From a virus, in the IMG/VR virus record IMGVR_UViG_3300031612_000080, positions 1-22,600 of that record: a stretch of DNA of 22,600 bases. The stretch is one strand, 5' to 3'. A model generated the notes under the pieces. That model made no database searches, was not told the origin of the DNA, and saw only the letters and a list, made by a program, of their open reading frames with translations. How positions within the stretch are numbered: position 1 is the stretch's first letter; each line of letters opens with the position of its first letter. The translations under genes were made by a program, and so were the position numbers. Below, in pieces: positions 2,045 through 22,600 of the stretch.

Positions 2045-4171
2045 TTAAATTATTGTTCCGTTTGCTAAACCGTCTTCAAGTAACCATTCAGCTTCATCTG
2101 TTAATTCTAGTTGATCACCACTTGATTTTTGTCCGACAATAACAACTACCTGATCAGATACTCTTCTAGTTTGTATGTTACCCATAAATCCAGTCTTTGT
2201 ATAGAAGTGTTCAAATCTACTATCTTTTTCAGATTGTATTGGATTTTCCGGATTAACTTTAGTATCTATCGGAATCTCAATAAATTGACCACCACCAGAT
2301 ATTTCCATATTACCAAGGTTCGCTGTTTCAATATCGACTGGTTCTTCTAAAAATACCTCAATGTTTATATTAACTGAATCTGAACCATCAGGAATTGCAT
2401 CATATCTTGTAACATATTCATCGTCGATTATCATCATCATACCACCTGGAACTTCAACTGTTATTGACTCTCCATTTAGATTACTACCACTAACTGTTAT
2501 TAATTGTGCACTAGAATCTTCACCAACAGTAGCTATAAACCAATTGAAGCTTGAGATACTAGATGTAACACTAGGTTCAATCACTGGAGCCGGTTCCGGT
2601 TCAGGAGTTGGTTCAGGAGTTGGTTCAGGAGTTGGTTGAGGCGTTGACGTAACAACAGGTGGATTATCAGTATTTTCTAAATTATTAACCCTTGTTGGCC
2701 ATTCTCTTCTAAGCAGTGTTAGTTTCTGTGTTAGTTTACCAGTGGAAGCCTTGTATAAAATTTGAATACCACCGACAATATAGTGTGCACTTAAGAAAGA
2801 ATCAACACTTTGTTGACCAGATTCGTATGTTTTTTCAGTGTCTTTTCCACCTTCACTCATGTTATCAAATCCACGTTCCTCTTTAGCAACTTCAACACTT
2901 TCTGCCATCGAGTTTGCACTAAAGCCTTCACTATATAGAACTACAGGTACTTTTTGGTATCTGTATATTCCTGGGTTATATGAATCTAACTCTACTTCTA
3001 ATTGAAGTTTAGAGAGTTCAGCCATGTTTTGTGTATTCTGTATTTCTGCAAATAAATAATTAGGATGCATATTAACTACATTCGTAGAATTAGAAGAACG
3101 TCCAACATATTTATATTTTATCTCATTTAAGTATCTCTCTTCACCTCTCCGACCTTTCAAAGGTTCTTCAATATCTCTCATTACAGAACTGGATAACGCT
3201 TCTATATCATTTGAAACCATTCCAACTGTATCACTACTAGAATTAGGCTCGTTTTCATAAAATTGAACAACTCTCTTATAACCAAACTTTCTAGCAACTT
3301 TTCCAGAACCATACTTTATAGCATATTTGCTTATATGTAAATTAGTTCCTTTACGCGCATCTATATTTGTAAGTATTAAATCAGCACGAGTTTTATCTTC
3401 ATCGCCTATACTTTCGTCAAGAGAATCTTCAAAATTAGTAAACGTCTCATCAATTGTATTTTCAGAATTTATCATTGCATTGACATCAACAAATGTAAGG
3501 TAATAGTATGGGTCTATGAAAAATGTTTGAAAGCTATCTTCTCCAATATATGAATGTAGTACAGTATTAGATACAACGTCAGACACTGTCTGATATGCAA
3601 TAAGTAAATTCATAGAATCAGATTCATGTGAAGTATCTATATTGGATGCATATCCTAATGACATGTCAGTTGCAATAGCTTCTAAATGTGTTAGTACACT
3701 TCCAGTTCCATATGATTTACATTGTTCAGCATAATATCCAGGTATTTTCATCACACCTTTAAATGTATACTTAGAACCACCAGCTCCGTGTTCTTCCGGT
3801 CGTTTAACAGGACTTATTACTGATTCAATATCGAAATCTATTCTAATATCCTTAAATGTATCTGGTTGTCTTGAGGCTATTCTCAAACTCATAACATCAC
3901 CACTCCTTGGATAGTTTTCTACAGCAAAGAATGCGTGTTTATCTATAACTGCAATATCTATCGTTGGAATTATTCCATTAAGATTAAGTAACATTGTAGA
4001 TATACTCTCTCCTTCAAAATCATAACCATTGATACGTAAGAACGGAGTACCCGCCCCATAATCTTTCGATGAATTCATTTCACCGTCTTCCTCGCCATAT
4101 GATTTAAATTCTAAATCGTCAAGTTCAATAGTAGGCTCAGTTCTTGTAAGAATGTGCTTCTCTAATGCCAT
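2045..4171 (-). CDS. Baseplate hub protein (gp27/gpD-like) with PTPE linker and Bacteroidota-type Ig-like domain
   Basis: 708 aa. Residues 1-500 look like a tail hub protein: an N-terminal strand-rich region with FLRINGYDFEG, a middle SYGTGSVLTHLEAIATD (about 153-169), LLIAYQTVSDVV and FFIDPYYYLTFVDV (about 217-230), as in gp27/gpD-type hubs. Residues 504-533 are a Pro-Thr-Glu linker built on PTPE. Residues about 534-638 then match a common Bacteroidota Ig-like pattern (ISSFNW, AQLITVSGSNL, ITVEVPGG). The C-terminal 70 residues follow. T4 gp27 is about 390 aa, so this is a hub plus appended exposed domains. The Ig-like domain may touch the host surface or decorate the baseplate; that is inference. 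The start follows the upstream gp53-like stop by 2 bases. Confidence 0.85.
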   Translation of the reverse strand: MALEKHILTRTEPTIELDDLEFKSYGEEDGEMNSSKDYGAGTPFLRINGYDFEGESISTMLLNLNGIIPTIDIAVIDKHAFFAVENYPRSGDVMSLRIASRQPDTFKDIRIDFDIESVISPVKRPEEHGAGGSKYTFKGVMKIPGYYAEQCKSYGTGSVLTHLEAIATDMSLGYASNIDTSHESDSMNLLIAYQTVSDVVSNTVLHSYIGEDSFQTFFIDPYYYLTFVDVNAMINSENTIDETFTNFEDSLDESIGDEDKTRADLILTNIDARKGTNLHISKYAIKYGSGKVARKFGYKRVVQFYENEPNSSSDTVGMVSNDIEALSSSVMRDIEEPLKGRRGEERYLNEIKYKYVGRSSNSTNVVNMHPNYLFAEIQNTQNMAELSKLQLEVELDSYNPGIYRYQKVPVVLYSEGFSANSMAESVEVAKEERGFDNMSEGGKDTEKTYESGQQSVDSFLSAHYIVGGIQILYKASTGKLTQKLTLLRREWPTRVNNLENTDNPPVVTSTPQPTPEPTPEPTPEPEPAPVIEPSVTSSISSFNWFIATVGEDSSAQLITVSGSNLNGESITVEVPGGMMMIIDDEYVTRYDAIPDGSDSVNINIEVFLEEPVDIETANLGNMEISGGGQFIEIPIDTKVNPENPIQSEKDSRFEHFYTKTGFMGNIQTRRVSDQVVVIVGQKSSGDQLELTDEAEWLLEDGLANGTII
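2600..2635. repeat. Short tandem repeat, 12-bp unit x3, encoding PTPE repeats
   Basis: On the plus strand the unit TTCAGGAGTTGG occurs three times in a row, with diverged units on each side. Read on the minus strand it encodes the Pro-Thr-Pro-Glu linker of the hub protein. Because the unit is a multiple of three, copy-number change would alter linker length without breaking the frame. Confidence 0.85.
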
Positions 4172-11362: not shown

Positions 11363-11373
11363 AATAGTTTTTA

Positions 11374-11451
11374 ATGTTGGTTAGTATTAATTGGTTATAA
11401 GTAAATATAATAAATAAATCTGAACTAAAAAAATCTAGAACAGTTTATTTT
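11374..11451 (-). promoter_or_regulatory. Promoter cassette, class B (with inverted repeat)
   Basis: Minus-strand order: AAAATAAAC, a T-rich block (ATTTTTTTAGT), a matching ATTTATTT arm, the core TATATTTAC, then TTATAACCAATTAATACTA before the 134-aa gene. The same ordered elements occur at six other gene junctions. The core TATATTTA differs by one base from the Bacteroidota -7 consensus TAnnTTTG. The first element contains the stop codon of the upstream 59-aa gene. Confidence 0.6.
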
Positions 11452-11624
11452 TGTTTTAGTTTATCAAGTACACACTCTAATCCCATGATCCAACCTTCAT
11501 TAAGTCCATGTGCATTAGCATCGTCTAAATTACCACAGTCCCACCATTCCTCATCAGGTTCAAAACCAACTTTAGCTTTAGTTAATAAGTCTTCAGCATA
11601 TTTAATAATTTCTTCTCTAGTCAT
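11445..11624 (-). CDS. Unrecognised small protein, 59 aa
   Basis: ATG at 11622-11624, TAA at 11445-11447. The N-terminus is MTREEIIKYAEDLLTKAKVG. The middle is acidic with WWDCGNLDDANAHGLNEG and the end is MGLECVLDKLKQK. It starts one base after the stop of the 69-aa gene and follows it in the same unit. Protein-like composition and tight spacing support it as a gene. No function recognised. Confidence 0.72.
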   Translation of the reverse strand: MTREEIIKYAEDLLTKAKVGFEPDEEWWDCGNLDDANAHGLNEGWIMGLECVLDKLKQK

Positions 11625-11625
11625 C

Positions 11626-11835
11626 TTAGTCTTCTTTTAGTATATTGATTCTACTTCTTAACCTTCCTTGTAATTGAAACGATGCCCAATTATTATCTAA
11701 GTATTCCATTTCTTCTACTATTCGCTTATTTGCATATAGTCTAACTAAATCACCTAAATCTACTATGTTGCCTCCATCAATGAATGTTGTTTTTGTATTT
11801 GCTACATAGTAGCTTAACGTTTCTTCTGCTGTCAT
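11626..11835 (-). CDS. Unrecognised small protein, 69 aa
   Basis: I chose the ATG at 11833-11835 (MTAEETLSYYVANTKTTF). The frame stays open for 13 codons upstream, but those codons are the promoter cassette itself, which reads as the same peptide in front of two other genes. The protein is mixed alpha/beta and ends LRSRINILKED. First gene after a class A cassette. Function unknown. Confidence 0.74.
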   Translation of the reverse strand: MTAEETLSYYVANTKTTFIDGGNIVDLGDLVRLYANKRIVEEMEYLDNNWASFQLQGRLRSRINILKED

Positions 11836-11837
11836 CT

Positions 11838-11872
11838 TTGTTAGTTTTAATTGGTTATAAAGTAAATATAAC
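11838..11872 (-). promoter_or_regulatory. Promoter cassette, class A, copy 1
   Basis: Core TATATTTAC followed by TTTATAACCAATTAAAACTA, then six bases and the start codon. GTTATA and TATAAC flank the core as inverted arms. Together with the adjacent terminator it is identical over 83 bases to the copy at 21590-21672. It should drive the 69-aa and 59-aa genes. Confidence 0.65.
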
Positions 11873-11901
11873 AAAAAAACCCGAGACTAAAAAATCTCGG
11901 G
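11873..11901 (-). terminator. Intrinsic terminator, class A, copy 1
   Basis: Minus strand: CCCGAGA stem, 8-base loop, TCTCGGG stem, then seven T residues. GC-rich stem plus T-run is a textbook rho-independent terminator. It lies 30 bases beyond... upstream of the promoter core of the 69-aa gene and downstream of the nucleotidyltransferase gene end (11932), so it ends the long 17807-11932 operon. Confidence 0.88.
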
Positions 11902-11931
11902 CAGTTTATTTTCAAAAAAGTTTAATTAATA

Positions 11932-13005
11932 TTAAATCAGATCATCGACTATCTTGATGTAGTCGTCTATTAAGTTTCTAGCCTTTTGAACAGCAGCATG
12001 TGCGGCTGGCGTATCAGCTTTATTAAATTTAGAAGCATTATATGTAATCATCATAGATGTTCTATATTCACTTGCGATACTATTCATGAAATCATCAGCA
12101 TTTTTGAAATTCAATAAGTCTCCAAATAATCCATTATCTTCTAATGTATCTGCAAGTCCTTTGATTGCTTCTACCATTCTTGGCATATCAAGTCCTTTTA
12201 CTTCAACACCTTTATATTTCTCAAGACCTTTTGACGGTTTCATGTCTCCTTCCTTTTTAAGATACTCAAAAAAGAATACAGCGATATCATGCAAGAAGTT
12301 ATTGAAGTCTAATGAAATAACCTTCTCTTCAACTCCAGATCTCTTAGACCATTGAGATAAAACATCTCCTTTGAATTTACCTCTTACACCTCGATCTTGT
12401 ATTGACAATCCTAAATTACCAGCAAGTGTAGAATACATCTTACCTAATACAAAACCTTTTACGTCTCTCATTGGTGTGTATCTTTGAAGAGCCCATTCCT
12501 CATAAGGAGGATGTGTAGTAACCATATCAGCTTGAATGTGTTCTAGATTACCGTCAACTTCAACTTTAAATAATATCTTAACACTACCAAGAGATGACAT
12601 GTTGTATGTTTCTCCTGCATCGACATAAGATAAGTTTGACATTTCAAGGAATCTGAATAATTCACCGTTATATGTTTTAATAGAAGCAACCTCGTCCTTC
12701 CTAGAACCTTTAGTTTCTATTTGAAGTAATGGATATGAAACTAAATAATCAATATCTCCGTAGATCTTATCTGGCTGATTAATTAAATCATCTTCATACC
12801 AAGAACCAGAACCAATTGCTTTTATAAATTTAAGAGGTGGCAGTCCAGCTGATTTAAGATGTACATTAAATTCTTTATCGAATTCTTTTATCTGTTTGTC
12901 TACTGCTTTTAAAACTTTAGGTGTTAGCTTAGTTTCTTGAGTTTTCGTAGAACTCCATCCACCTTCATTCAAAAATTCATTAAGCGATATAATCTTCCTG
13001 TTCAT
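11932..13005 (-). CDS. Nucleotidyltransferase-fold protein with capsid-targeting-like N-terminus
   Basis: 357 aa. After an N-terminal leader MNRKIISLNEFLNE (predicted cleavage after E14, before GGW) comes a nucleotidyltransferase signature: IGSGSW at 64-69, then GDIDYLV with D84 and D86 as the metal-binding pair, and a third acidic strand HIQADMV with D160. This is the hG[GS]...DxD...D layout of the polymerase-beta-like superfamily, which transfers NMP groups to proteins, RNA or small molecules. The C-terminal half is helical (FNNFLHDIAVFFFEYLKKEG). The substrate is unknown. It is the last gene before a strong terminator and follows a metallophosphoesterase by 2 bases. With the leader it could be packaged and injected, like T4 Alt; that is inference. 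Confidence 0.85.
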   Translation of the reverse strand: MNRKIISLNEFLNEGGWSSTKTQETKLTPKVLKAVDKQIKEFDKEFNVHLKSAGLPPLKFIKAIGSGSWYEDDLINQPDKIYGDIDYLVSYPLLQIETKGSRKDEVASIKTYNGELFRFLEMSNLSYVDAGETYNMSSLGSVKILFKVEVDGNLEHIQADMVTTHPPYEEWALQRYTPMRDVKGFVLGKMYSTLAGNLGLSIQDRGVRGKFKGDVLSQWSKRSGVEEKVISLDFNNFLHDIAVFFFEYLKKEGDMKPSKGLEKYKGVEVKGLDMPRMVEAIKGLADTLEDNGLFGDLLNFKNADDFMNSIASEYRTSMMITYNASKFNKADTPAAHAAVQKARNLIDDYIKIVDDLI

Positions 13006-13007
13006 CG

Positions 13008-13694
13008 TTATATAATTATTTTACAATCTATATATCTTTTTACGTCATCCATGTATTCCTTAACCTCTTCAAAACTAAATGGTCTAAATTCAGAATGGCA
13101 ATCAATACCAATTTCAAGACTCGTTCCATTAGGGAATATCCCGTCCACTTTTTTGTTTTCAGATAGTAACTTGATATCGTCATGTCTTCCTTCATCTAAT
13201 AGCATCTTAAGTGTAGCAGGTTGTATGGAATTCTGTAAGTTTCCATGCGTGTGACCATATAGCATCCAATTTCCATACATAGAACCATTCCATGATTTCA
13301 TAGGATAATGCGATAAAATGATCTTAGTTTCTATTTCGTCGATCCAAAGTTCTCGATATTGAGACACTGATGTGAAGTGTGAATGTACTTCAAGACCCTT
13401 AGTGAATTCTCTATCATGATTTCCAAGAATTAAATGAATCTCTTTACAATTGATTCTATCTCTGAAATCTCCAACAGTTTTTGCAGAACCAAACGACCAA
13501 TCACCTAAGTGGTATAGGACATCATCCTCTCCAACAACACTATTTATATTATTAACTATAGTGTCATTCATTTCTTGTAAAGAAACAAAGTCCCTGCAAC
13601 CTGACGTTCTTGGCCATGTTGTTAGGGACTTTATAATATTTCTATGGTTATAGTGAGTGTCACTGGTGAACCATATTTTTCTATCTTTTTGCAT
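13008..13694 (-). CDS. Metallophosphoesterase (calcineurin-like), 228 aa
   Basis: Complete set of motifs of the two-metal phosphoesterase fold: SDTHYNH with D12 and H14, LGDW with D65, GNHD with N92 and H93, LSHYP with H129 and GHTHG with H148 and H150. Enzymes of this group cleave phosphomonoesters or diesters, often nucleotides; the substrate is not readable here. It sits directly upstream of the nucleotidyltransferase (2-base gap), so it may act on the same kind of nucleotide linkage, which is inference. It is distinct in sequence from the second phosphoesterase at 16717-17526. Confidence 0.9.
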   Translation of the reverse strand: MQKDRKIWFTSDTHYNHRNIIKSLTTWPRTSGCRDFVSLQEMNDTIVNNINSVVGEDDVLYHLGDWSFGSAKTVGDFRDRINCKEIHLILGNHDREFTKGLEVHSHFTSVSQYRELWIDEIETKIILSHYPMKSWNGSMYGNWMLYGHTHGNLQNSIQPATLKMLLDEGRHDDIKLLSENKKVDGIFPNGTSLEIGIDCHSEFRPFSFEEVKEYMDDVKRYIDCKIII

Positions 13695-13724
13695 ATACTA
13701 TTATATACAATAACGAATTAAAGT

Positions 13725-14447
13725 TTAATCATTTTCAGATTTCCATATGTCATACTTTTTAACAATCTTCTTAAGTATATCAGCACGTACAATATCATCT
13801 TCAGTAAAAGCAAAGTTATTTACACCGTTAATACCTTCCATTAATTTAATAAATCCAGGAAGACCAGCACTTTTCTTTGGAATATCATATTGACTTACAT
13901 CTCCAGTAATTAATGTTTTGGATTTCTTACCCATACGAGTAATAAACAACATCAATTGCTTGAACGTAGCATTTTGAGCTTCATCTAAGATCATTAAACA
14001 ATTATCAAAAGTGTCACCTCTCATATATGCAAGTGGTTTAAATACGATGATCTCTCTTTCAATTAATCTCTCTGTAATTTCAGTACCAACTATCTTTTTA
14101 AGGTTAGAAATATAAGACTGCATATATGGATCCATCTTGTCTTCAATTCCACCAGGTAAGAACCCTAACTTTTCACCAGATTCTTGTATTGGTTTACATA
14201 ATACAACTTGCTGTATCTTTCTTTCAGCTAACATTTTTAAAGCAGTGTAACATGCTGTAAATGTTTTACTCGTTCCAGCAGGTCCGTGACAAAATGTTAC
14301 GTCGCTTTCTTCTATTGTTCTTGAGTATTTTTCCTGAGATTGTCTTAGTTTGACATGTTGAATATGTTCAGGCTTAACTCGGATATGAGTAGGTTTTGCT
14401 GTTGGTACTTTAATCTCAGCATTTTTAGTTGGTTTTTTCTTAGCCAT
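13725..14447 (-). CDS. phoH: PhoH-like ATPase
   Basis: 240 aa, a typical length for phage PhoH. Walker A GPAGTSKT at 55-62, followed by the PhoH-specific KPIQESGEKLGFLPGGIEDK (85-104), Walker B LMILDEAQ at 151-158 and the sensor TGDVSQYDIP at 181-190. PhoH proteins are P-loop ATPases of the SF1-like group, linked to RNA metabolism in bacteria and common in marine phages, where the role is still unsettled. All ATPase residues are intact. The first 30 residues are Lys/Pro-rich. It lies in the same operon as bS21 and the DnaJ-like protein. Confidence 0.93.
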   Translation of the reverse strand: MAKKKPTKNAEIKVPTAKPTHIRVKPEHIQHVKLRQSQEKYSRTIEESDVTFCHGPAGTSKTFTACYTALKMLAERKIQQVVLCKPIQESGEKLGFLPGGIEDKMDPYMQSYISNLKKIVGTEITERLIEREIIVFKPLAYMRGDTFDNCLMILDEAQNATFKQLMLFITRMGKKSKTLITGDVSQYDIPKKSAGLPGFIKLMEGINGVNNFAFTEDDIVRADILKKIVKKYDIWKSEND

Positions 14448-14470
14448 TATATGTATATGTTTGTGGAGGT

Positions 14471-14728
14471 TTAATCACCAGCCATTATTATTAACTCTCT
14501 AAGCTTTAATAGTTTTTCACACTTCTCATATTCTTCTATGCTTTCGAAGTATTCGACCATCATATTTATAAATTTACTACGATGTCCAGTGCCATGATGA
14601 ACTTCTATATTTTTACCGTCATTTTGAAATACAATAAACCTGTTAACAGATTTTGTAAAATTACGAGTTAGTATATAGTAGCTAGTTCTCATAAGGGAAT
14701 CCTTGTTATCTTCGCTGCTATCTTTCAT
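14471..14728 (-). CDS. Small protein with C-terminal YEKC module (copy 1), 85 aa
   Basis: The C-terminal part reads MMVEYFESIEEYEKCEKLL (56-74, YEKC at 67-70). The same module ends two other proteins here (15020-15292 and 17526-17807). The N-terminal 50 residues are unrelated to those of the other two (YYILTRNFTKSVNRFIVF). The module is helical and recalls UVR-type helices ('E-YEKA-L'), which mediate protein contacts. Located directly after the bS21 gene with a 96-base gap. Function unknown. Confidence 0.75.
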   Translation of the reverse strand: MKDSSEDNKDSLMRTSYYILTRNFTKSVNRFIVFQNDGKNIEVHHGTGHRSKFINMMVEYFESIEEYEKCEKLLKLRELIIMAGD

Positions 14729-14824
14729 TTAAGTATAGTATTCTTTTTCTTATCTATATATTTCAATAAAGACACGTTGTATCAACCATACTATCATATT
14801 CAATGAAAAAAGTATTATAATATA
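14729..14824 (-). other. Intergenic gap after the bS21 gene
   Basis: 96 bases, unusually long for this operon. It contains a small AT palindrome (TATTATAATA, near the bS21 stop), a T-run and no clear hairpin terminator. It could hold an internal promoter for the 85-aa and phoH genes, but no copy of the cassette core is present. No ORF is seen in it. Confidence 0.4.
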
Positions 14825-15016
14825 TTAATCCGAGGCCTCTTGATTTTTCTGTTGAATGTAAATAGCCTTCTGCATTTTCAATCTATTAACTTCAGATTTC
14901 TTAGAGAAATGAGCCCGTTCTCTTATCTCGTCCCTCTGTTTAGTATTATTGACTTTACGTCTCATCTGCTTTATAGCCTTGTCGATTTTACCGTCTTCTA
15001 CTTTTATTATTAGCAT
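14825..15016 (-). CDS. rpsU: Ribosomal protein bS21 homologue, phage-encoded
   Basis: 63 aa, the usual length of bS21. It begins MLIIKVEDGKIDKAIKQMRR and continues with RERAHFSKKS and QKAIYIQQ, matching the Bacteroidota form of bS21 (MLII start, ID-A-K-RK, R-R-F-K-S, QKA-YIQ). bS21 sits on the 30S platform near the anti-Shine-Dalgarno end of 16S rRNA. In Bacteroidota it is part of the pocket that hides the anti-SD sequence. Phage bS21 could therefore alter mRNA choice on host ribosomes. Its own leader has no SD, only an A-rich stretch. Flanked on both sides by YEKC-module proteins. Confidence 0.92.
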   Translation of the reverse strand: MLIIKVEDGKIDKAIKQMRRKVNNTKQRDEIRERAHFSKKSEVNRLKMQKAIYIQQKNQEASD

Positions 15017-15019
15017 ACT

Positions 15020-15292
15020 TTATTTTATTTTATCGATTATTTTCTTTAATTCCATGCATTTTTCATAATCTTCCGTACTTTCAAAGAAATCTAATATATG
15101 TTGAATAGCAGAAATCTTACTACTACTTGGCGTATCAGCATTCAATACACCTAATTCATTGTTTATTACAGATTTATATACAACGTCCATCATTATTCCT
15201 CTAGAACCTTCCTGCATATCACGAATATAGTCCATTGAATTCCAATCGTCTCCGTTATCAAATTCGAAATACGTTTCATCCTCGCCAATCAT
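15020..15292 (-). CDS. Small acidic protein with C-terminal YEKC module (copy 2), 90 aa
   Basis: The last 28 residues, HILDFFESTEDYEKCMELKK onward (YEKC at 76-79), match the modules of the 85-aa and 93-aa proteins. The first 60 residues are acidic and unlike theirs (FEFDNGDDWNSMDYIRDMQE). It lies immediately upstream of the bS21 gene, whose start codon begins 3 bases after this stop. A role with bS21 or ribosomes is only a positional guess. Confidence 0.78.
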   Translation of the reverse strand: MIGEDETYFEFDNGDDWNSMDYIRDMQEGSRGIMMDVVYKSVINNELGVLNADTPSSSKISAIQHILDFFESTEDYEKCMELKKIIDKIK

Positions 15293-15301
15293 AATCTTAA
15301 T

Positions 15302-16102
15302 TTATTTTTTACCAATATCTTTTATCTCTTCCAATAACTTATATTGTTCTTCGCTTAATTCGGTTATCGCACTACTTAATTTTACCATTAAATTACCATA
15401 ACCTTCTGTCTTATATATTGGAATACCTTTAGATGCTATGCGCAAAACTTTACCAATATGAGAACCTTTAGGTATCTGAACTTTAATAGAATAGAATGCA
15501 TTTGTGATTGTAACTTCTGTACCTAACATCAAATCATAGAATGGTAGAACTACATCTACCCATATATCATTTCCATTTACTATAATCTCAGAACTCGGTA
15601 ATACGTGACATGTAACTATTAAATCTCCATTAGGAGCTTCAGAATTCATAGGGTGTTCACCACCTCTCCCGTTTATTTTAAGACGTGTTCCATTACGAAT
15701 TCCTTTAGGGATCCTTAGATTAAACTTAGAACCTCCAAGATCAAACATTTTCTCAGTACCGTTATACACATCGTGAATGTTCAAATGAACAGATGCTCGA
15801 ATGTCCGGTCCTTTTGCTCTAGTACCGAAAGCTCCATCGAACATGCTCGAAAAGCCTGGACTATTTCTAAAAGCATTAAAGAAATCATTGTTCATTCCAC
15901 CACCCATTGTTTGAGCAGTATCATACTTTTTTCGATTCAAGTCATCCCCAATATGCTCATAAGCCTCAGATATTTCCTTGAACTTATCAGCATTTCCAGT
16001 TTCTTTATCAGGATGGTGTTGTTTAGCTAACTTACGATATGCTTTTTTTATCACATCGCTCGTTGCTTCTTTGTCTACTCCAAGAGTATCATAATAAGAC
16101 AT
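15302..16102 (-). CDS. DnaJ-like co-chaperone (CbpA/type II)
   Basis: 266 aa. A J domain at 1-62 has AYRKLAKQHHPDKE, with the essential HPD at 30-32. A Gly/Phe-rich linker follows (about 66-98), then the C-terminal substrate-binding domains (RIPKGIRNGTRLKINGRGGE, VQIPKGSHIGKVLRIASKGI). There is no zinc-finger CxxCxGxG repeat, so it is the type II/CbpA class. CbpA is about 306 aa; this one is shorter at the C-terminus and may lack the dimer end. It would stimulate host DnaK, perhaps for virion assembly or protein refolding. The symbol dnaJ is avoided because the type differs. Confidence 0.92.
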   Translation of the reverse strand: MSYYDTLGVDKEATSDVIKKAYRKLAKQHHPDKETGNADKFKEISEAYEHIGDDLNRKKYDTAQTMGGGMNNDFFNAFRNSPGFSSMFDGAFGTRAKGPDIRASVHLNIHDVYNGTEKMFDLGGSKFNLRIPKGIRNGTRLKINGRGGEHPMNSEAPNGDLIVTCHVLPSSEIIVNGNDIWVDVVLPFYDLMLGTEVTITNAFYSIKVQIPKGSHIGKVLRIASKGIPIYKTEGYGNLMVKLSSAITELSEEQYKLLEEIKDIGKK

Positions 16103-16104
16103 AA

Positions 16105-16266
16105 CTATTTAGTTTTCTTATTAAAGTTCTTTTTTTCTAAGATTCTCTTCTCTCTAACTCTTTTAATAGTTCGTCGAGATTCACTAACTTCACGTTTCTC
16201 TTTGTTTTCATAACAGTCAGCAATACGTGTAAGCTGTGTTAGTATGTTCTGTAATATATCTTCCAT
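16105..16266 (-). CDS. Unrecognised small basic protein, 53 aa
   Basis: ATG at 16264-16266, TAG at 16105-16107, 2 bases before the DnaJ-like start. The N-terminus MEDILQNILTQLTRIADCYE is a hydrophobic-patterned helix. The rest is strongly basic (SRRTIKRVREKRILEKKN). This suggests a nucleic-acid- or protein-binding helix, but no family is recognised. Spacing to both neighbours supports a real gene. Confidence 0.7.
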   Translation of the reverse strand: MEDILQNILTQLTRIADCYENKEKREVSESRRTIKRVREKRILEKKNFNKKTK

Positions 16267-16277
16267 GTATTATATAT

Positions 16278-16370
16278 CTAAATGAATTGTAAGATGAGTA
16301 TTATGGCCATTATTCCTGCCATCGATATCACTGCGATTCGCATGCTATCTTCGTATTGTCTATGTTTCAT
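16278..16370 (-). CDS. Tiny membrane peptide, 30 aa
   Basis: ATG at 16368-16370, TAG at 16278-16280. After MKHRQYEDSMR comes a hydrophobic stretch, IAVISMAGIMAIILILQFI, long enough for one membrane span, with basic residues before it (cytoplasmic side). It begins 2 bases after the stop of the 45-aa gene. A size of 30 aa makes chance possible, but the charged-then-hydrophobic layout and the spacing favour a real peptide. Confidence 0.55.
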   Translation of the reverse strand: MKHRQYEDSMRIAVISMAGIMAIILILQFI

Positions 16371-16372
16371 AA

Positions 16373-16510
16373 TTATTCTGTATCATTTGGCTGACACATC
16401 TTAGTGAAAGCAGACGTAAGGTCTTTGTGTATATTCCCATTAGATCTATCCATTTCCTCACAGATAAGTTCTCTAATTTCAAATATTTCTTCAGGTGTCA
16501 ATTTTGTCAT
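16373..16510 (-). CDS. Unrecognised small protein, 45 aa
   Basis: ATG at 16508-16510, TAA at 16373-16375. It reads MTKLTPEEIFEIRELICEEM then a polar end (FTKMCQPNDTE). It starts 1 base after the stop of the 64-aa gene and is followed 2 bases later by the 30-aa peptide. Helical and acidic; no function recognised. Confidence 0.62.
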   Translation of the reverse strand: MTKLTPEEIFEIRELICEEMDRSNGNIHKDLTSAFTKMCQPNDTE

Positions 16511-16511
16511 G

Positions 16512-16706
16512 TTATAGTTCTTTAATGAATTTGTTTAATTCTTCGATAGTAATGCTATCACCTTTTGTTCTGTTAAAAAGCTCTGCAAATGCATCCATTC
16601 TATATTCGTCCATTGCATCATGAATTAAATCTTCATGAATACTCACAGTTTCACCGTCATGTTCAATGTACTCATACGTATCTAATATCTCTTCAGCATT
16701 TCTCAT
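16512..16706 (-). CDS. Unrecognised acidic protein, 64 aa
   Basis: I chose the ATG at 16704-16706 (MRNAEEILDTYEYIEHDG), which lies after the stop of the upstream phosphoesterase. A TTG-started extension of 8 codons (to 16730) would overlap that gene by 14 bases and is less likely. The protein is acidic and helical (EDLIHDAMDEYRMDAFAELF), ending in an EELNKFIKEL helix. No function recognised. Confidence 0.7.
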   Translation of the reverse strand: MRNAEEILDTYEYIEHDGETVSIHEDLIHDAMDEYRMDAFAELFNRTKGDSITIEELNKFIKEL

Positions 16707-16716
16707 ATTATTCGTG

Positions 16717-17526
16717 TTATAATTGTTCAATCCTGACTTCTACTAATTCGTCAATATTTAAACACTGATGTGTAAACTTTTTGTTATCGTATTCGAAATG
16801 TTCTTTATGACTCTCATGGAAATGTCCATAGAAGTGTAAGAAAGAATCTTGTTTTTCTTTTATAGAATCAAACATGTCTTTCATCCAAGAACCTTCCTCT
16901 TCGATATCTCTATATAATCCCATGTCTTTTAGCAACCAATGTTCAATACCTGACTTATCAGTAGGCCAAACACCATTAGGTCTAGTATGAGTAACTATAA
17001 TATCTAAATCATTAGGTATCTCATCTAACTGAGATTTACTTAAACATTTAAATGGTTCGTCAGCCCAATATGATTTACCTTCAGTTCTCAATGTTCTATC
17101 AATAGAGTATGCTCCACCATTACAATATATTTTTACAGGCTTTTCTCTACCTTCTATTGTAAGAGCTAGTATCGTATGGTCAGGTACTAGGATGATGTTC
17201 TCGATCTCTCCATCTTTTTTTGTATTTTCCATATACTCATGGTTATTAAACCACTTAGGATCGTCGTGGTTACCCCTGATGATATACAAAAAGGTGTTGT
17301 ACTTCTTTAAACGAGCATTGGCGATATGTAAGGCTTTCATGTCTCCATCGATCGATGAAAAACCTAAACCGAAATCTCCAACATGAACGATCGCTTTAGA
17401 TTTTTCAGTATTATTCAAATCATATCGCATAAGTAATTGAGGAGCTATCTGCAAGGTATTACCATGAGTATCTCCAAGCATCATAAGATGCCCAAATGTT
17501 ATATCATTTTTAATTACTTCGTCCAT
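16717..17526 (-). CDS. Metallophosphoesterase (calcineurin-like), 269 aa
   Basis: Motifs: LGDTHGN with D19 and H21, VGDFG with D51, RGNHDD with N86 and H87, THTRP, and GHFH near the C-terminus. The metal site is complete. The THTRP motif and the insert with CNGGAYSIDR are characteristic of a group of small phage and bacterial phosphoesterases whose substrates are not established. The start overlaps the upstream stop by one base (TAATG). It is the second such enzyme in the operon; the first is at 13008-13694. Confidence 0.9.
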   Translation of the reverse strand: MDEVIKNDITFGHLMMLGDTHGNTLQIAPQLLMRYDLNNTEKSKAIVHVGDFGLGFSSIDGDMKALHIANARLKKYNTFLYIIRGNHDDPKWFNNHEYMENTKKDGEIENIILVPDHTILALTIEGREKPVKIYCNGGAYSIDRTLRTEGKSYWADEPFKCLSKSQLDEIPNDLDIIVTHTRPNGVWPTDKSGIEHWLLKDMGLYRDIEEEGSWMKDMFDSIKEKQDSFLHFYGHFHESHKEHFEYDNKKFTHQCLNIDELVEVRIEQL

Positions 17527-17807
17527 TACACTGTTTTTAAGTTTCCTTTAACTTCATTGAGAGCTTTTAGAATAATCGTACATTTTTCATACTCTTCACT
17601 TTCTGTAAAATGCTCAAGCATATCACTGAGAGTTTTCTCTATTTCATGTTGTTGGTAATCTCCATTCAAATTATTGAAATCTATATCACCACTATTTACA
17701 GCTTCGAAATTCTTTCGAGCAAGAGCATCTTTCATGCGATCTTTCAGCATTGATTGTTCTTGTTCGCTGTACATTTCGTCTTCGAAGTCCATCATTTCAT
17801 CATCCAT
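17526..17807 (-). CDS. Small acidic protein with C-terminal YEKC module (copy 3), 93 aa
   Basis: The C-terminal region LSDMLEHFTESEEYEKCTII (60-79, YEKC at 73-76) matches the modules of the 85-aa and 90-aa proteins. The N-terminus is very acidic and Met-rich (MDDEMMDFEDEMYSEQEQSM). First gene of the long operon, directly after a class B promoter cassette. Function unknown, but the sharing of the module with the two bS21 neighbours ties the three together. Confidence 0.77.
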   Translation of the reverse strand: MDDEMMDFEDEMYSEQEQSMLKDRMKDALARKNFEAVNSGDIDFNNLNGDYQQHEIEKTLSDMLEHFTESEEYEKCTIILKALNEVKGNLKTV

Positions 17808-17810
17808 AGT

Positions 17811-17880
17811 TGTTTGTTTTTAATTATAGTTAAATATAACAAATAAATCTGACAGTAAAAAACTTTTTGGTGTTTATTTT
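17811..17880 (-). promoter_or_regulatory. Promoter cassette, class B, start of the long operon
   Basis: Minus-strand order: AAAATAAAC, a T-run block TTTTTTACTGTCAG, ATTTATTTG, then core TTATATTTA followed by ACTATAATTAAAAA before the ATG at 17807. AAATAAA and TTTATTT are inverted arms around the T-run block. It is the most diverged copy downstream of the core. It precedes the operon that includes bS21, phoH and the nucleotidyltransferase. Confidence 0.6.
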
Positions 17881-18208
17881 ACCACTTTTTTGCTGGACAT
17901 TCTTTTGCTTTAGCAAAAACCATCGCAGGAAATTGGCAACCACATTGATTACATTTGTAACCCGTAACAGCATCATCCTTTTTATGTTCTTTAGGATTAA
18001 ACGCAGCTCTTACTTTATGTTTAGCACCACCTGGCATGAGTTTCTCAATAAACGTAAACGTACCAGATTCTACTAGATTTGGACATGTTTTACAAATTGC
18101 TGCTCTTTTTTCTGCAAGGTCTTTAACATCTTCAGGTAAATTGTCATAGTTTGAAAATGCATTGAGGTAGTTTCCCCATCCGTCTTTAATATCTTTAAAT
18201 ATTCCCAT
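17879..18208 (-). CDS. Zinc-binding Cys-cluster protein, 109 aa
   Basis: C39-x-x-C42 in RAAICKTCPN and C86-x-x-C89-x-C91 in YKCNQCGCQF, plus C104 in ECPAKKW at the C-terminus, give a likely zinc ribbon-type site. The middle is basic (GGAKHKVRAAFNPKEHKK). The end 'CP-KW' recurs in small phage and prophage proteins of Bacteroidota as far as I recall. Likely binds nucleic acid or protein; not assignable further. Starts 2 bases after the 24-aa ORF. Confidence 0.8.
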   Translation of the reverse strand: MGIFKDIKDGWGNYLNAFSNYDNLPEDVKDLAEKRAAICKTCPNLVESGTFTFIEKLMPGGAKHKVRAAFNPKEHKKDDAVTGYKCNQCGCQFPAMVFAKAKECPAKKW

Positions 18209-19937: not shown

Positions 19938-19952
19938 GATATTTTAGCGTTT

Positions 19953-20024
19953 AGTTAGTATTAATTGGTTATAAGTAAATATAACAAATAAACTTGACAG
20001 TAAAAAATCCTGTGCGTTTATTTT
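19953..20024 (-). promoter_or_regulatory. Promoter cassette, class B (copy before the 71-aa gene)
   Basis: AAAATAAAC, then CACAGGATTTTTTACTGTCA, then GTTTATTTG, core TTATATTTAC, then TTATAACCAATTAATACTAA. The 8-base arms AAATAAAC and GTTTATTT are perfect inverted repeats around the T-run block. The core 18 bases GTTATATTTACTTATAAC also form an inverted repeat (GTTATA/TATAAC). Confidence 0.62.
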
Positions 20025-20034
20025 CAATTTATTT

Positions 20035-20226
20035 TTAATTAATTGAAGCAACGATCATGCTTGTAAAGTAATCCTTCTCACTAACAGTCGCTTCACTATT
20101 AATTAATATCATTAATTCTTTACTGCTTTTACATGTATCGATTTTATCGTTCCAATCAGCGTTGAGGTTTAATGGCATTCTGCGCATTGTACTTTTTAAA
20201 TGTTCTAATGTTGTTTGATTTTCCAT
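20035..20226 (-). CDS. Unrecognised small protein, 63 aa
   Basis: ATG start, MENQTTLEHLKSTMRRMPLN, with a polar middle (NADWNDKIDTCKSSKELM) and a helical end. It follows the 67-aa gene by 12 bases in the same unit. No function recognised. Confidence 0.68.
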   Translation of the reverse strand: MENQTTLEHLKSTMRRMPLNLNADWNDKIDTCKSSKELMILINSEATVSEKDYFTSMIVASIN

Positions 20227-20238
20227 CTTGTTTTTCTT

Positions 20239-20442
20239 TTAGTTAGATTGTCTTTTTATTTCTGATGTATTAACATCACTTTCATGTTCTCTAAGGAACT
20301 CTATCAATTCGAGTATAGTTTCCTTGGAATCACCACGTTCTATCATATGAGTAACTACTCGTAATATACCGTAACTTCTGAAACAGCTCTCGTGTATATT
20401 ATCTATAGTCGTTGGTCTTGATAGTATTTCTTTTATTTTCAT
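20239..20442 (-). CDS. Unrecognised small protein, 67 aa
   Basis: Start chosen at ATG 20440-20442 (MKIKEILSRPTTIDNIHESC), by analogy with the other cassettes, which keep six bases between AAACTA and the start codon. An ATG two codons earlier is also possible. Mostly helical, with a charged ILELIEFLREHESD segment. First gene after the second class A cassette. Unknown function. Confidence 0.7.
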   Translation of the reverse strand: MKIKEILSRPTTIDNIHESCFRSYGILRVVTHMIERGDSKETILELIEFLREHESDVNTSEIKRQSN

Positions 20443-20444
20443 AG

Positions 20445-20479
20445 TCATTAGTTTTAATTGGTTATAGAGTAAATATAAC
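20445..20479 (-). promoter_or_regulatory. Promoter cassette, class A, copy 2
   Basis: Core TATATTTAC followed by TCTATAACCAATTAAAACTA. One base differs from the other class A copies between the core and TATAACC (C for T). It drives the 67-aa and 63-aa genes. Confidence 0.62.
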
Positions 20480-20508
20480 AAAAAAACCCGAGACTAAAAA
20501 ATCTCGGG
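20480..20508 (-). terminator. Intrinsic terminator, class A, copy 2
   Basis: Same CCCGAGA / 8-base loop / TCTCGGG hairpin and seven T residues as the other class A copies. It lies after the end of the 93-aa gene (20523) and ends its unit. Confidence 0.87.
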
Positions 20509-20522
20509 CAGTTTATTTTCAA

Positions 20523-20804
20523 TTAGAATACTAATAAACTAATAGGAACATTAAGACTTCTGTTACGACTATCACTAACAACAACTTTCGTCTTATTAAT
20601 TTTAATAATTTTGAAATCTGTATTTAAACAACTTCTATCAGCAACTTGAACTGTCATTCCAATCTTAAGGGATGCTTTAGTTATATTATCTGATGTAACT
20701 CTGTTTGAGTTGATAGTGTCAACAACAAGTGTGTTGATGTTTTCTAATTGCTCCGTAGAAAGATTTGAAGTTGCAATTGCTTTAACGATTTGAGAATAAG
20801 TCAT
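20523..20804 (-). CDS. Unrecognised small protein with SH3/KOW-like end, 93 aa
   Basis: ATG start. A helical N-terminal half (MTYSQIVKAIATSNLSTEQL) is followed by a strand-rich segment KIGMTVQVADRSCLNTDFKI onward, ending SLNVPISLLVF. The 'KIGMTVQV ... KIIKINKTKVVV' pattern resembles a KOW/SH3-like barrel, which often binds nucleic acid. Single gene between a class B promoter and a class A terminator. The role is inference. Confidence 0.74.
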   Translation of the reverse strand: MTYSQIVKAIATSNLSTEQLENINTLVVDTINSNRVTSDNITKASLKIGMTVQVADRSCLNTDFKIIKINKTKVVVSDSRNRSLNVPISLLVF

Positions 20805-20811
20805 AGTAGAT

Positions 20812-20879
20812 AGTTTTAATTGGTTATAAGTAAATATAACAAATAAGCTTGACAGTAAAAAATCCTGTGTGTTTATTTT
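20812..20879 (-). promoter_or_regulatory. Promoter cassette, class B (copy before the 93-aa gene)
   Basis: Order as in the other class B copies: AAAATAAAC, ACACAGGATTTTTTACTGTC, AAGCTTATTTG, core TTATATTTAC, TTATAACCAATTAAAACTA. The downstream arm carries one base change (GCTTATTT), so the outer inverted repeat is imperfect. The core inverted repeat is intact. Confidence 0.62.
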
Positions 20880-20891
20880 TAATTTATTTTG

Positions 20892-21107
20892 CTATGCGTT
20901 GTTTTTGAGTTCAGCTATTCTATCTTCTAATCCATATACAACAGCCAAAGCCTCATCGCCAGTTTTAAGAGCATTCTCCAACTCATTTATTACCGAATGC
21001 TTCACATATTGATTTACGCGATCTTCAAGGTCCTTGCAAGCCTTCACTTGTTCACCTTTTCCTTCGGCTACTATAATATTAGCCATAAGTGCTCTAATTC
21101 CGTCCAT
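20892..21107 (-). CDS. Unrecognised small helical protein, 71 aa
   Basis: ATG start, MDGIRALMANIIVAEGKGEQ, then charged helices (DLEDRVNQYVKHSVINELEN) and a coiled-coil-like end GLEDRIAELKNNA. Starts 1 base after the upstream stop. Function unknown. Confidence 0.7.
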   Translation of the reverse strand: MDGIRALMANIIVAEGKGEQVKACKDLEDRVNQYVKHSVINELENALKTGDEALAVVYGLEDRIAELKNNA

Positions 21108-21292: not shown

Positions 21293-21592
21293 TTAGTATT
21301 TTGTTGTTTCATCTGATTGTCGAAGTAACCTAGAGAAAACCTCTACGAATTTTTCATTCCGAGACATTGTATGCTCTCCCATTGTATCTAGAATAAAATG
21401 TACCTTTTCGTGGTAATATGTATCTAATATAATCGATTTGTCTAGATTATCTCCTTTGTAGTTTTCACATAAAGTAATTAAATTATCTGTAACATTAGAT
21501 TCTCCTAATACAGATTCGTTACTTAGTCTCAAACTATCATAATTTACAGTAACTGTTGTCGCAAACAGTTTAAAGCTTTTAGGTATATCCAT
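21293..21592 (-). CDS. Small HExxH metallopeptidase-like protein, 99 aa
   Basis: Start at ATG 21590-21592, downstream of a class A cassette. The sequence TYYHEKVHFILDTMGEH contains a HExxH zinc motif (H-E-K-V-H), followed about 18 residues on by NEKFVEVFSRLLRQ, which has a suitable third-ligand Glu. The layout fits small zincins of the ImmA/IrrE-like or phage 'HExxH plus NE' kind. Those often cut regulators, but here nothing shows the target. There are no cysteines for a zinc ribbon except one Cys at LCENY. The small size means it may be a minimal peptidase or an inactive relative; the family is tentative. Confidence 0.78.
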   Translation of the reverse strand: MDIPKSFKLFATTVTVNYDSLRLSNESVLGESNVTDNLITLCENYKGDNLDKSIILDTYYHEKVHFILDTMGEHTMSRNEKFVEVFSRLLRQSDETTKY

Positions 21593-21594
21593 CT

Positions 21595-21629
21595 TTGTTA
21601 GTTTTAATTGGTTATAAAGTAAATATAAC
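21595..21629 (-). promoter_or_regulatory. Promoter cassette, class A, copy 3
   Basis: Core TATATTTAC, then TTTATAACCAATTAAAACTA. Identical to copy 1 across 83 bases, including the terminator and the six bases to the start codon. Drives the 99-aa, 57-aa and 71-aa genes. Confidence 0.65.
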
Positions 21630-21658
21630 AAAAAAACCCGAGACTAAAAAATCTCGGG
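21630..21658 (-). terminator. Intrinsic terminator, class A, copy 3
   Basis: CCCGAGA stem, 8-base loop, TCTCGGG stem, seven T residues. It lies just after the galE stop (21684) and ends that transcript. Confidence 0.88.
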
Positions 21659-21683
21659 CAGTTTATTTTCAATTTATTTTCAA

Positions 21684-22600
21684 TTACATTCGTCTATTCA
21701 TTTCCCAATTCCAGGAATCTTTCATACAATCTCCTAGAGTTTTTTCAGCGAACCATTTAAATTCCTTCTCTATTAAAGAACAATCTGAATATACTTCTAC
21801 AACATCTCCTTCTCGTCTATCACCTATGGTATAATCTATACGTTCTCCAGTTGCCTCTTCAAAACTCTTAATAGCTTCAAGTACACTGACACCCTTTCCA
21901 GTTCCAACGTTAAATACGTATTTACCTTCACGTGAGTTTATATACTTGAGAGCAGATACATGAGATTTAGCTAAATCAACAACATGAATATAATCACGAA
22001 TACATGTTCCATCGATAGTTTCATAATCATCTCCATACACTGTTATTCCATTTCCATATTTCAATGCTGTTGTAATAACTGGTACTAAATTAGAAGGTTT
22101 GTCATTTGACCTATCTCCTATGAGTGCACTTTCATGAGAACCTATAGGATTAAAGTACCTTAAGGCAACGCTGTTTATTTTAATAGATTCGTTTATTATA
22201 TTTTCACAGATCTGTTTTGTTTCAGCGTATGGAGATTCTGCTGGTTTGAACGGTGTGCTTTCAGTTACTGGAAGCTTGTCAGCATTGCCATACACTGAAC
22301 ATGATGATGAGAATATTAGATTGTTAACTTTAAACGTGCTCATCACATCCATCAATGATTCCAATGAACCTATATTGTTCTTAAAATACTTACTAGGATT
22401 TTTTACAGATTCTCCTACAGATTTGAAAGCAGCAAAGTGTATTACACCAGCAATTCCCTCTCCAACATCTTTAAACACATCATACAATGCACTAACATCA
22501 GCACAATCTACGTTATAGTATTTTATACCTGTTGCTATTATTGATTCAATGCCCTTAATGTTATCTTTAGTTGTATTCGAGAAATTATCTACTATTATCG
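21684..22600 (-). CDS. galE: UDP-glucose 4-epimerase, 5' end cut by window edge
   Basis: About 304 aa are visible; a full GalE is about 338 aa, so roughly 30 N-terminal residues (with the Rossmann glycine loop) lie beyond the window. The frame is open to the edge. Visible motifs: VDNFSN, then GVIHFAAFKSVGESV, the SSSCSVYGN segment with the catalytic Ser, PYAETK with the catalytic Tyr-x-x-x-Lys, NPIGSH, TCIRDYIHVVDLA and FNVGTGKGVSVLE. These fit GalE throughout. It interconverts UDP-glucose and UDP-galactose. In a phage this may feed glycosylation of the virion, of DNA or of the host surface; which one is inference. A class A terminator follows. Confidence 0.93.
   Translation of the reverse strand, partial: IIVDNFSNTTKDNIKGIESIIATGIKYYNVDCADVSALYDVFKDVGEGIAGVIHFAAFKSVGESVKNPSKYFKNNIGSLESLMDVMSTFKVNNLIFSSSCSVYGNADKLPVTESTPFKPAESPYAETKQICENIINESIKINSVALRYFNPIGSHESALIGDRSNDKPSNLVPVITTALKYGNGITVYGDDYETIDGTCIRDYIHVVDLAKSHVSALKYINSREGKYVFNVGTGKGVSVLEAIKSFEEATGERIDYTIGDRREGDVVEVYSDCSLIEKEFKWFAEKTLGDCMKDSWNWEMNRRM

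Follow-up and report, generated by a model that had tools for sequence, protein, structure and literature searches.

Chen et al. (2022, PMC9723584) described Bacteroidetes-infecting jumbo phages that encode bS21 with an aromatic residue 54, and the idea of replacement is in the literature as well (PMC9723584, PMC6375957, PMC7162821). In F. johnsoniae, an extended Shine-Dalgarno sequence (SD) mediates the autoregulation of rpsU and is used best by bS21-lacking ribosomes (McNutt et al. 2023, PMC9976891). According to the same study, extended SDs mark rpsU across Bacteroidota, Tyr54 of F. johnsoniae bS21 stacks on A1534 of the 16S 3' tail, and either Y54A or a C-terminal deletion leads to more translation of SD reporters. 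The authors also raised the idea that autoregulation might counter phages. The bS21 of the Pelagibacter phage HTVC008M enters E. coli ribosomes, which are then nearly inactive (about 5%), and bS21 makes up 88% of ribosomal proteins in viral metagenomes (Mizuno et al. 2019, PMC6375957).

Here we analyze a bS21 gene found in a 22,600-base fragment of a virus genome (IMG/VR record IMGVR_UViG_3300031612_000080; the whole stretch is referred to as the window). Phage bS21 of the Bacteroidota type is already published and the gene adds one more member. A sequence-only reading of the window had likewise regarded the class as not new, in agreement with the Bacteroidetes phages of PMC9723584.

Identity of the gene and of the virus

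As judged by profiles, the match to a solved bS21 and the tree, the product of the gene is a bS21 of the Bacteroidia type. The 63-residue protein exceeds the cut-offs of both PF01165 (41.6 bits, E 1e-10; cut-off 27) and the NCBIfam model TIGR00030 (32.1 bits; cut-off 28.95), so the profile searches bear out the bS21 assignment of the sequence-only reading. It also has a weak match to PHROG 21469, 'ribosomal protein S21' (E 0.0017). Among solved structures, the bS21 chain of PDB 7jil comes closest (E 2.9e-8); this entry is the F. johnsoniae ribosome according to Chen et al. (PMC9723584). A structure model of the protein (mean pLDDT 83.8) consists of three helices (residues 11-25, 27-36 and 40-62). 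The third predicted helix contains Tyr53, the residue aligned with F. johnsoniae Tyr54. Foldseek returned 11 weak matches for this model, none with an E-value of 0.001 or better; all 11 were ribosome entries, which does not amount to proof. The MLII start had been read correctly. The QKAIYIQ signature is present too, but it occupies residues 49-55 and is followed by eight more residues, so it is not at the very end of the protein as had been stated.

The proposed Bacteroidota type also agrees with the phylogenetic analysis. In a tree of 108 bS21 sequences, the protein joins a Tyr54 clade in which 48 rows are from phages and 25 from Bacteroidota hosts (support 100/99), set apart from the E. coli and Arg54 types, and it keeps the Tyr54 equivalent. 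Its sister is the bS21 of virus L003 (99/87). An all-phage group of 37 rows encloses it at 84/81, which is not firm. As only 64 alignment columns are behind the tree, the finer branching is unsure. In a smaller sequence set there are five phage-host switches and three independent phage-host pairs on firm branches, too few for a sign test to reach 0.05. The same set does not reject a topology with one phage clade (p-AU 0.179). Three queries against the phage collection gave 5, 6 and 1 bS21 records. All were uncultured or metagenomic, and there is thus no cultivated Bacteroidota phage with bS21 in this collection. The five relatives of the window protein are encoded by 635-735-kb metagenomic phage genomes (40-52% identity).

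The largest differences between phage and host proteins (47 versus 25 rows) are found at positions 28, 23 and 24 in F. johnsoniae numbering, and the main differences fall at positions 5-8, 21-24 and 28. The window protein has the commonest phage letters, Val at 23 and Gln at 28. For their own set, Chen et al. pointed to positions 21, 23, 25 and 28 (PMC9723584). There is no phage-host difference at position 54, and the C-terminal half is conserved with the hosts. Phage relatives were gathered with single proteins, small alignments and a QKAIYIQ DNA motif. Since this motif selects for Tyr54, the N-terminal-pattern scans give the fairest view of residue 54, which there is Tyr in 42, His in two and Arg in one of 45 unique proteins.

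By gene content the virus is a tailed phage, because the low end of the window and its 9.2-kb continuation (L378) carry baseplate and head-tail genes; it is probably a myovirus. The continuation comes from the 31,666-base record behind L002, which matches the window at 24 of 24 sampled 40-base words within the fetched stretch and extends beyond the low end. The host is probably a member of Bacteroidota. This is consistent with the bS21 tree, with the SD-less genes described below and with the matches of a 561-residue virion protein: 23 of 31 matching phage records are named for Prevotella, Tenacibaculum, Chryseobacterium or Flavobacterium, the remainder being six uncultured ones and two of Sphingomonas phage PAU. 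Neither tRNA genes nor Rfam matches were found in the window. No terminase (PF03237) was found in any of the six related records searched, each of them a fragment; Chen et al. delimit clades by TerL similarity of about 70% or more. A 12-nt tandem repeat was observed inside a 708-residue gene (Table 1), where it encodes a Pro-Thr-Pro-Glu stretch.

Table 1. Positions of the bS21 gene, its surroundings and repeated elements in the window
Feature	Position	Strand	Basis
bS21 gene, 63 aa, ATG start	14825..15016	-	PF01165, TIGR00030, 7jil chain, tree
bS21 initiation region, AT-rich, no SD, 0.0 kcal/mol with 16S tail	15017..15038	-	pairing
90-aa protein, no assigned function, YEKC paralogue, 3 bases ahead of bS21	15020..15292	-	no Pfam match at E 0.1 or better
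DnaJ-type chaperone, 266 aa, with J and DnaJ C-terminal domains	15302..16102	-	Pfam
85-aa protein, no assigned function, YEKC paralogue, downstream of bS21	14471..14728	-	ORF, paralogue comparison
PhoH-like ATPase, 240 aa	13725..14447	-	PF02562, E 1.5e-63
Third YEKC paralogue	17526..17807	-	
Same-strand run of 12 genes including bS21, gaps -14 to 106 bases	11932..17807	-	gaps; repeated module at each end
Module copy ahead of the 12-gene run with bS21, possible promoter	17795..17904	-	inferred
Other module copies	11366..11475, 11827..11936, 19940..20049, 20434..20543, 20795..20904, 21584..21693	-	
12-nt tandem repeat	2586..2645		

Genomic context and transcription

Within the 12-gene run the order is DnaJ, the 90-residue protein, bS21, the 85-residue protein, PhoH and a metallophosphatase, and no structural genes were recognised among the bS21 neighbours in the run. 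We infer that the run is a single transcript. Virus L003 has nearly the same arrangement (DnaJ, 98 aa, bS21, 84 aa, PhoH). Its bS21 is syntenic with that of the window and has an open frame at 61% identity; synteny at this identity argues that the gene is maintained. The sister virus L012 (L011 is the same virus, 99.99%) shares the locus order but is missing bS21. The part of the window unmatched in L012, about 15009-14829, is almost exactly the bS21 gene. No bS21 remnant was found at this locus of L012, whose record is a fragment, so that a copy elsewhere is possible. Loss in the L012 line appears to be the simpler reading, because PhoH and DnaJ of L012 (87% and 71% identity to the window) are closer than those of L003 (77% and 65%).

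Three small proteins are paralogues with a common C-terminal E..YEKC motif. Two of them flank bS21, and all are conserved in L003 and L012. A Pfam search with these paralogues gave no match; the motif is reminiscent of the UVR domain. The contig of the bS21-bearing relative L003 also encodes a ClpA/ClpB-like AAA+ protein (L379, 3598-5595). A phage-encoded protease directed at host bS21 was considered for such phages, as a speculation, by McNutt et al. (PMC9976891).

An intergenic module is present in seven copies (Table 1). In order, it has AAATAAAC, a U-rich stretch or hairpin, and TTTATTTGTTATATTTACTTATAACC. In three copies the hairpin is perfect and followed by a T-rich tail, and all seven have a conserved AT-rich box. 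Every copy stands shortly ahead of a minus-strand ORF, and all lie at 11.4-21.6 kb, the small-gene half. Neither the first 11 kb of the window (the structural region) nor the 9.2-kb continuation nor L003 yielded a copy of the module. It looks like a terminator-plus-promoter unit, and the position of its copies suggests that bS21 would be expressed with DnaJ and PhoH, not with the structural genes. Sigma-70-like promoter hits were at the level of shuffled sequence (55 versus 55.1), and we do not claim such promoters. Among unique phage bS21 genes, 28 of 77 (L206 and similar) have an AT-rich box like TATATTTATT at most 45 nt upstream of the start, as a raw count. This box may be a phage promoter that gives a very short leader.

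Shine-Dalgarno sequences of phage and host bS21 genes

As a measure of SD strength we took the energy with which positions -22 to -4 pair with the 16S tail; positions -44 to -26 were used as a mock region. Ahead of the window bS21 gene the longest pairing run is 3. The sequence-only reading had seen no SD before this gene or the other genes it examined, and the energies lead to the same view: among the 42 window genes tested, none reaches -7 and none reaches even -5 kcal/mol (in the mock region, 5/42 and 8/42, respectively).

For the comparison with hosts we used 253 phage loci left after filters, including five from the phage collection (one search contributed the best 80 of 204), and 173 host loci. 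The latter comprise the best 80 of 506 confirmed (mostly Flavobacterium), three more, and 90 places in genomes among the 148 searched, taken down a score-ranked list (30 + 60). Rows were left out if they had no bS21 hit, a start shift of more than 8 residues, less than 44 nt upstream or fewer than 50 residues, or if they were exact duplicates. A further 3 phage and 59 host rows were removed because position 54 was not Y, H, F or W. Two loci counted as phage need a remark: L262 differs hardly at all from the host genes L334 and L374 and is possibly host DNA, and the record behind L409 carries the label UNVERIFIED.

In the resulting set of unique genes with an aromatic residue 54, an SD of -9 kcal/mol or stronger precedes only 4 of 104 phage genes versus 77 of 86 host genes; none of either kind reaches this level in the mock region. 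After clustering at 90, 80 and 70%, the phage and host fractions become 4/69 versus 29/37, 4/55 versus 13/21 and 4/47 versus 8/15, respectively. With the tail read from a host genome (the pattern matched in one of three genomes) the numbers at -9 stay at 4 and 77; with the 8-nt core of the tail they are 2 and 75. Nine of the 86 host genes have no SD. As a description the contrast is strong, but it is weak evidence that adaptation occurred repeatedly. Because these phages initiate without an SD by default (0/42 in the window), its absence from bS21 does not have to reflect adaptation. We found no report of an SD-less phage rpsU in the part of the literature covered, including a term search of PMC9723584 and PMC9976891; by the term search, the SD of the phage bS21 gene is not treated in the searched text of PMC9723584. 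The phage-host contrast on rpsU is apparently new to the literature.

Four phage lineages have kept an SD on bS21: L006 (3001-3198; copy L028), L205 (3001-3198), L273 (3001-3192) and L281 (3001-3192), with -9.6 to -13.6 kcal/mol. One of these genes belongs to the 735-kb phage LR756501. Among surrounding ORFs of at least 120 residues, -7 kcal/mol is reached by 1/6 (L006), 0/8 (L028), 0/2 (L205), 0/6 (L273) and 0/5 (L281). Since neighbouring ORFs are mostly SD-less, the SD in these exceptions belongs to bS21 and not to a general style of the phage. The SD-bearing phage genes are candidates for still being under host-type feedback. Three Bacteroidota genomes in our sample have two bS21 genes each: G040 (L289, L363), G106 (L365, L366) and G121 (L327, L364). 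In G106 one copy has an SD and the other does not, and in G040 neither has. Second host copies are possibly prophage-derived or specialised.

Possible role and comparison with described systems

We propose that the phage bS21 serves as a replacement for the host ribosomal protein, with the anti-SD still sequestered and synthesis outside the host feedback loop, a reading whose chances we judge to be even. The protein would replace host bS21 on the 30S platform. With the tail-stacking Tyr kept, the anti-SD would stay sequestered, which would suit a phage with SD-less tested genes. The sequence-only reading had raised a possible change in which mRNAs the host ribosome initiates. These same two features, the clamping Tyr and the SD-less genes, sharpen the direction of that idea: most likely the anti-SD is hidden by phage bS21 rather than freed. 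The autoregulatory SD is missing from the initiation region, and for this reason feedback would not act on the phage gene; its mRNA would be translated by bS21-replete ribosomes (by extension from PMC9976891). Once 30S subunits were filled by phage bS21, the bS21-less ribosomes that favour host rpsU would become rare and host resupply would fall (again by extension from PMC9976891). Following a proposal of Chen et al. (PMC9723584), the changes that phage copies share within the N-terminal helix and beyond it might tune which mRNAs are preferred. In favour of replacement we count the family matches, the Tyr54 equivalent together with the F. johnsoniae mutants (PMC9976891), the tree, the mostly Bacteroidota-phage matches of the virion protein, the SD contrast, the synteny with L003 and the entry of the HTVC008M protein into E. 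coli ribosomes (PMC6375957). Against it we count the SD-less default, the mere three firm pairs, the SD-less host genes (9/86), the four SD-bearing phage lineages, the HTVC008M result (~5%) and L012 without the gene.

A rival reading is plain supplementation, in which phage bS21 would keep ribosomes complete as host synthesis falls, mRNA choice would be unchanged and the missing SD would simply be default style. The absence of SDs from all 42 tested genes fits this explanation, as do Tyr54 and the C-terminal half conserved with hosts. However, supplementation does not need the phage differences at 5-8, 21-24 and 28, and four phage lineages keep the bS21 SD though their neighbour genes mostly do without one. 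We consider it possible but tend to doubt it. A bolder form of replacement makes phage bS21 a feedback-free competitor. Lacking the SD that couples bS21 synthesis to bS21-less ribosomes, it would saturate 30S, keep the anti-SD pocket closed and thereby turn down translation of host rpsU in a one-way, self-reinforcing replacement, with SD-bearing phage copies remaining on the host loop; this we hold to be rather unlikely. Poisoning or shut-off, whereby phage bS21 would yield defective ribosomes or a general host block while another factor spared phage mRNAs, seems improbable. The drop of E. coli ribosome translation to about 5% with the pelagiphage protein (PMC6375957) speaks for it, but that result came from a distant-species cross, the window protein retains the residue with which host bS21 binds the tail, and the analysis turned up no second factor. 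That this small gene on a 22.6-kb fragment, absent from the locus in a sister virus, is a decaying or chance host fragment with no phage role is very improbable indeed, as it is contradicted by the open frame at the same locus in L003; the phage baseplate genes in the window and the viral nearest rows in the tree speak against it too.

The contrast between strong host SDs and almost none in phages makes phage bS21 function testable in F. johnsoniae, for which rpsU reporters and Y54A, C-terminal deletion and depletion strains exist (PMC9976891). If phage bS21 lowered rpsU'-gfp but not SD-less reporters, a phage gene would override a known ribosome-based feedback loop.

Among described systems, Al-Shayeb et al. 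(2020, PMC7162821) emphasised N-terminal extensions in the S21 proteins of huge phages, whereas the window protein has none. HTVC008M and the metagenomic viruses of Mizuno et al. (PMC6375957) are likewise aquatic viruses with phage-encoded bS21, but the HTVC008M protein is of alphaproteobacterial origin and the one studied here of Bacteroidota type. The gene encodes the same type of protein as chromosomal Bacteroidota rpsU, including the Tyr clamp on the 16S tail. It differs from the autoregulated genes, whose extended SD is stronger than about -13 kcal/mol as against 0.0 kcal/mol here; with this SD missing, the described autoregulation could not act on it. In clades a-e of Chen et al. (PMC9723584), bS21 is surrounded by TerL, portal, protease and capsid genes, faces the other way and is expressed late, whereas the window gene is on the same strand as DnaJ and PhoH. 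Several features of the phages of Chen et al. do resemble the present case: they have a Bacteroidetes-type bS21 with an aromatic residue 54 (Tyr in 54/61 there), PhoH in the genome and N-terminal divergence from hosts that includes positions 23 and 28 (PMC9723584).
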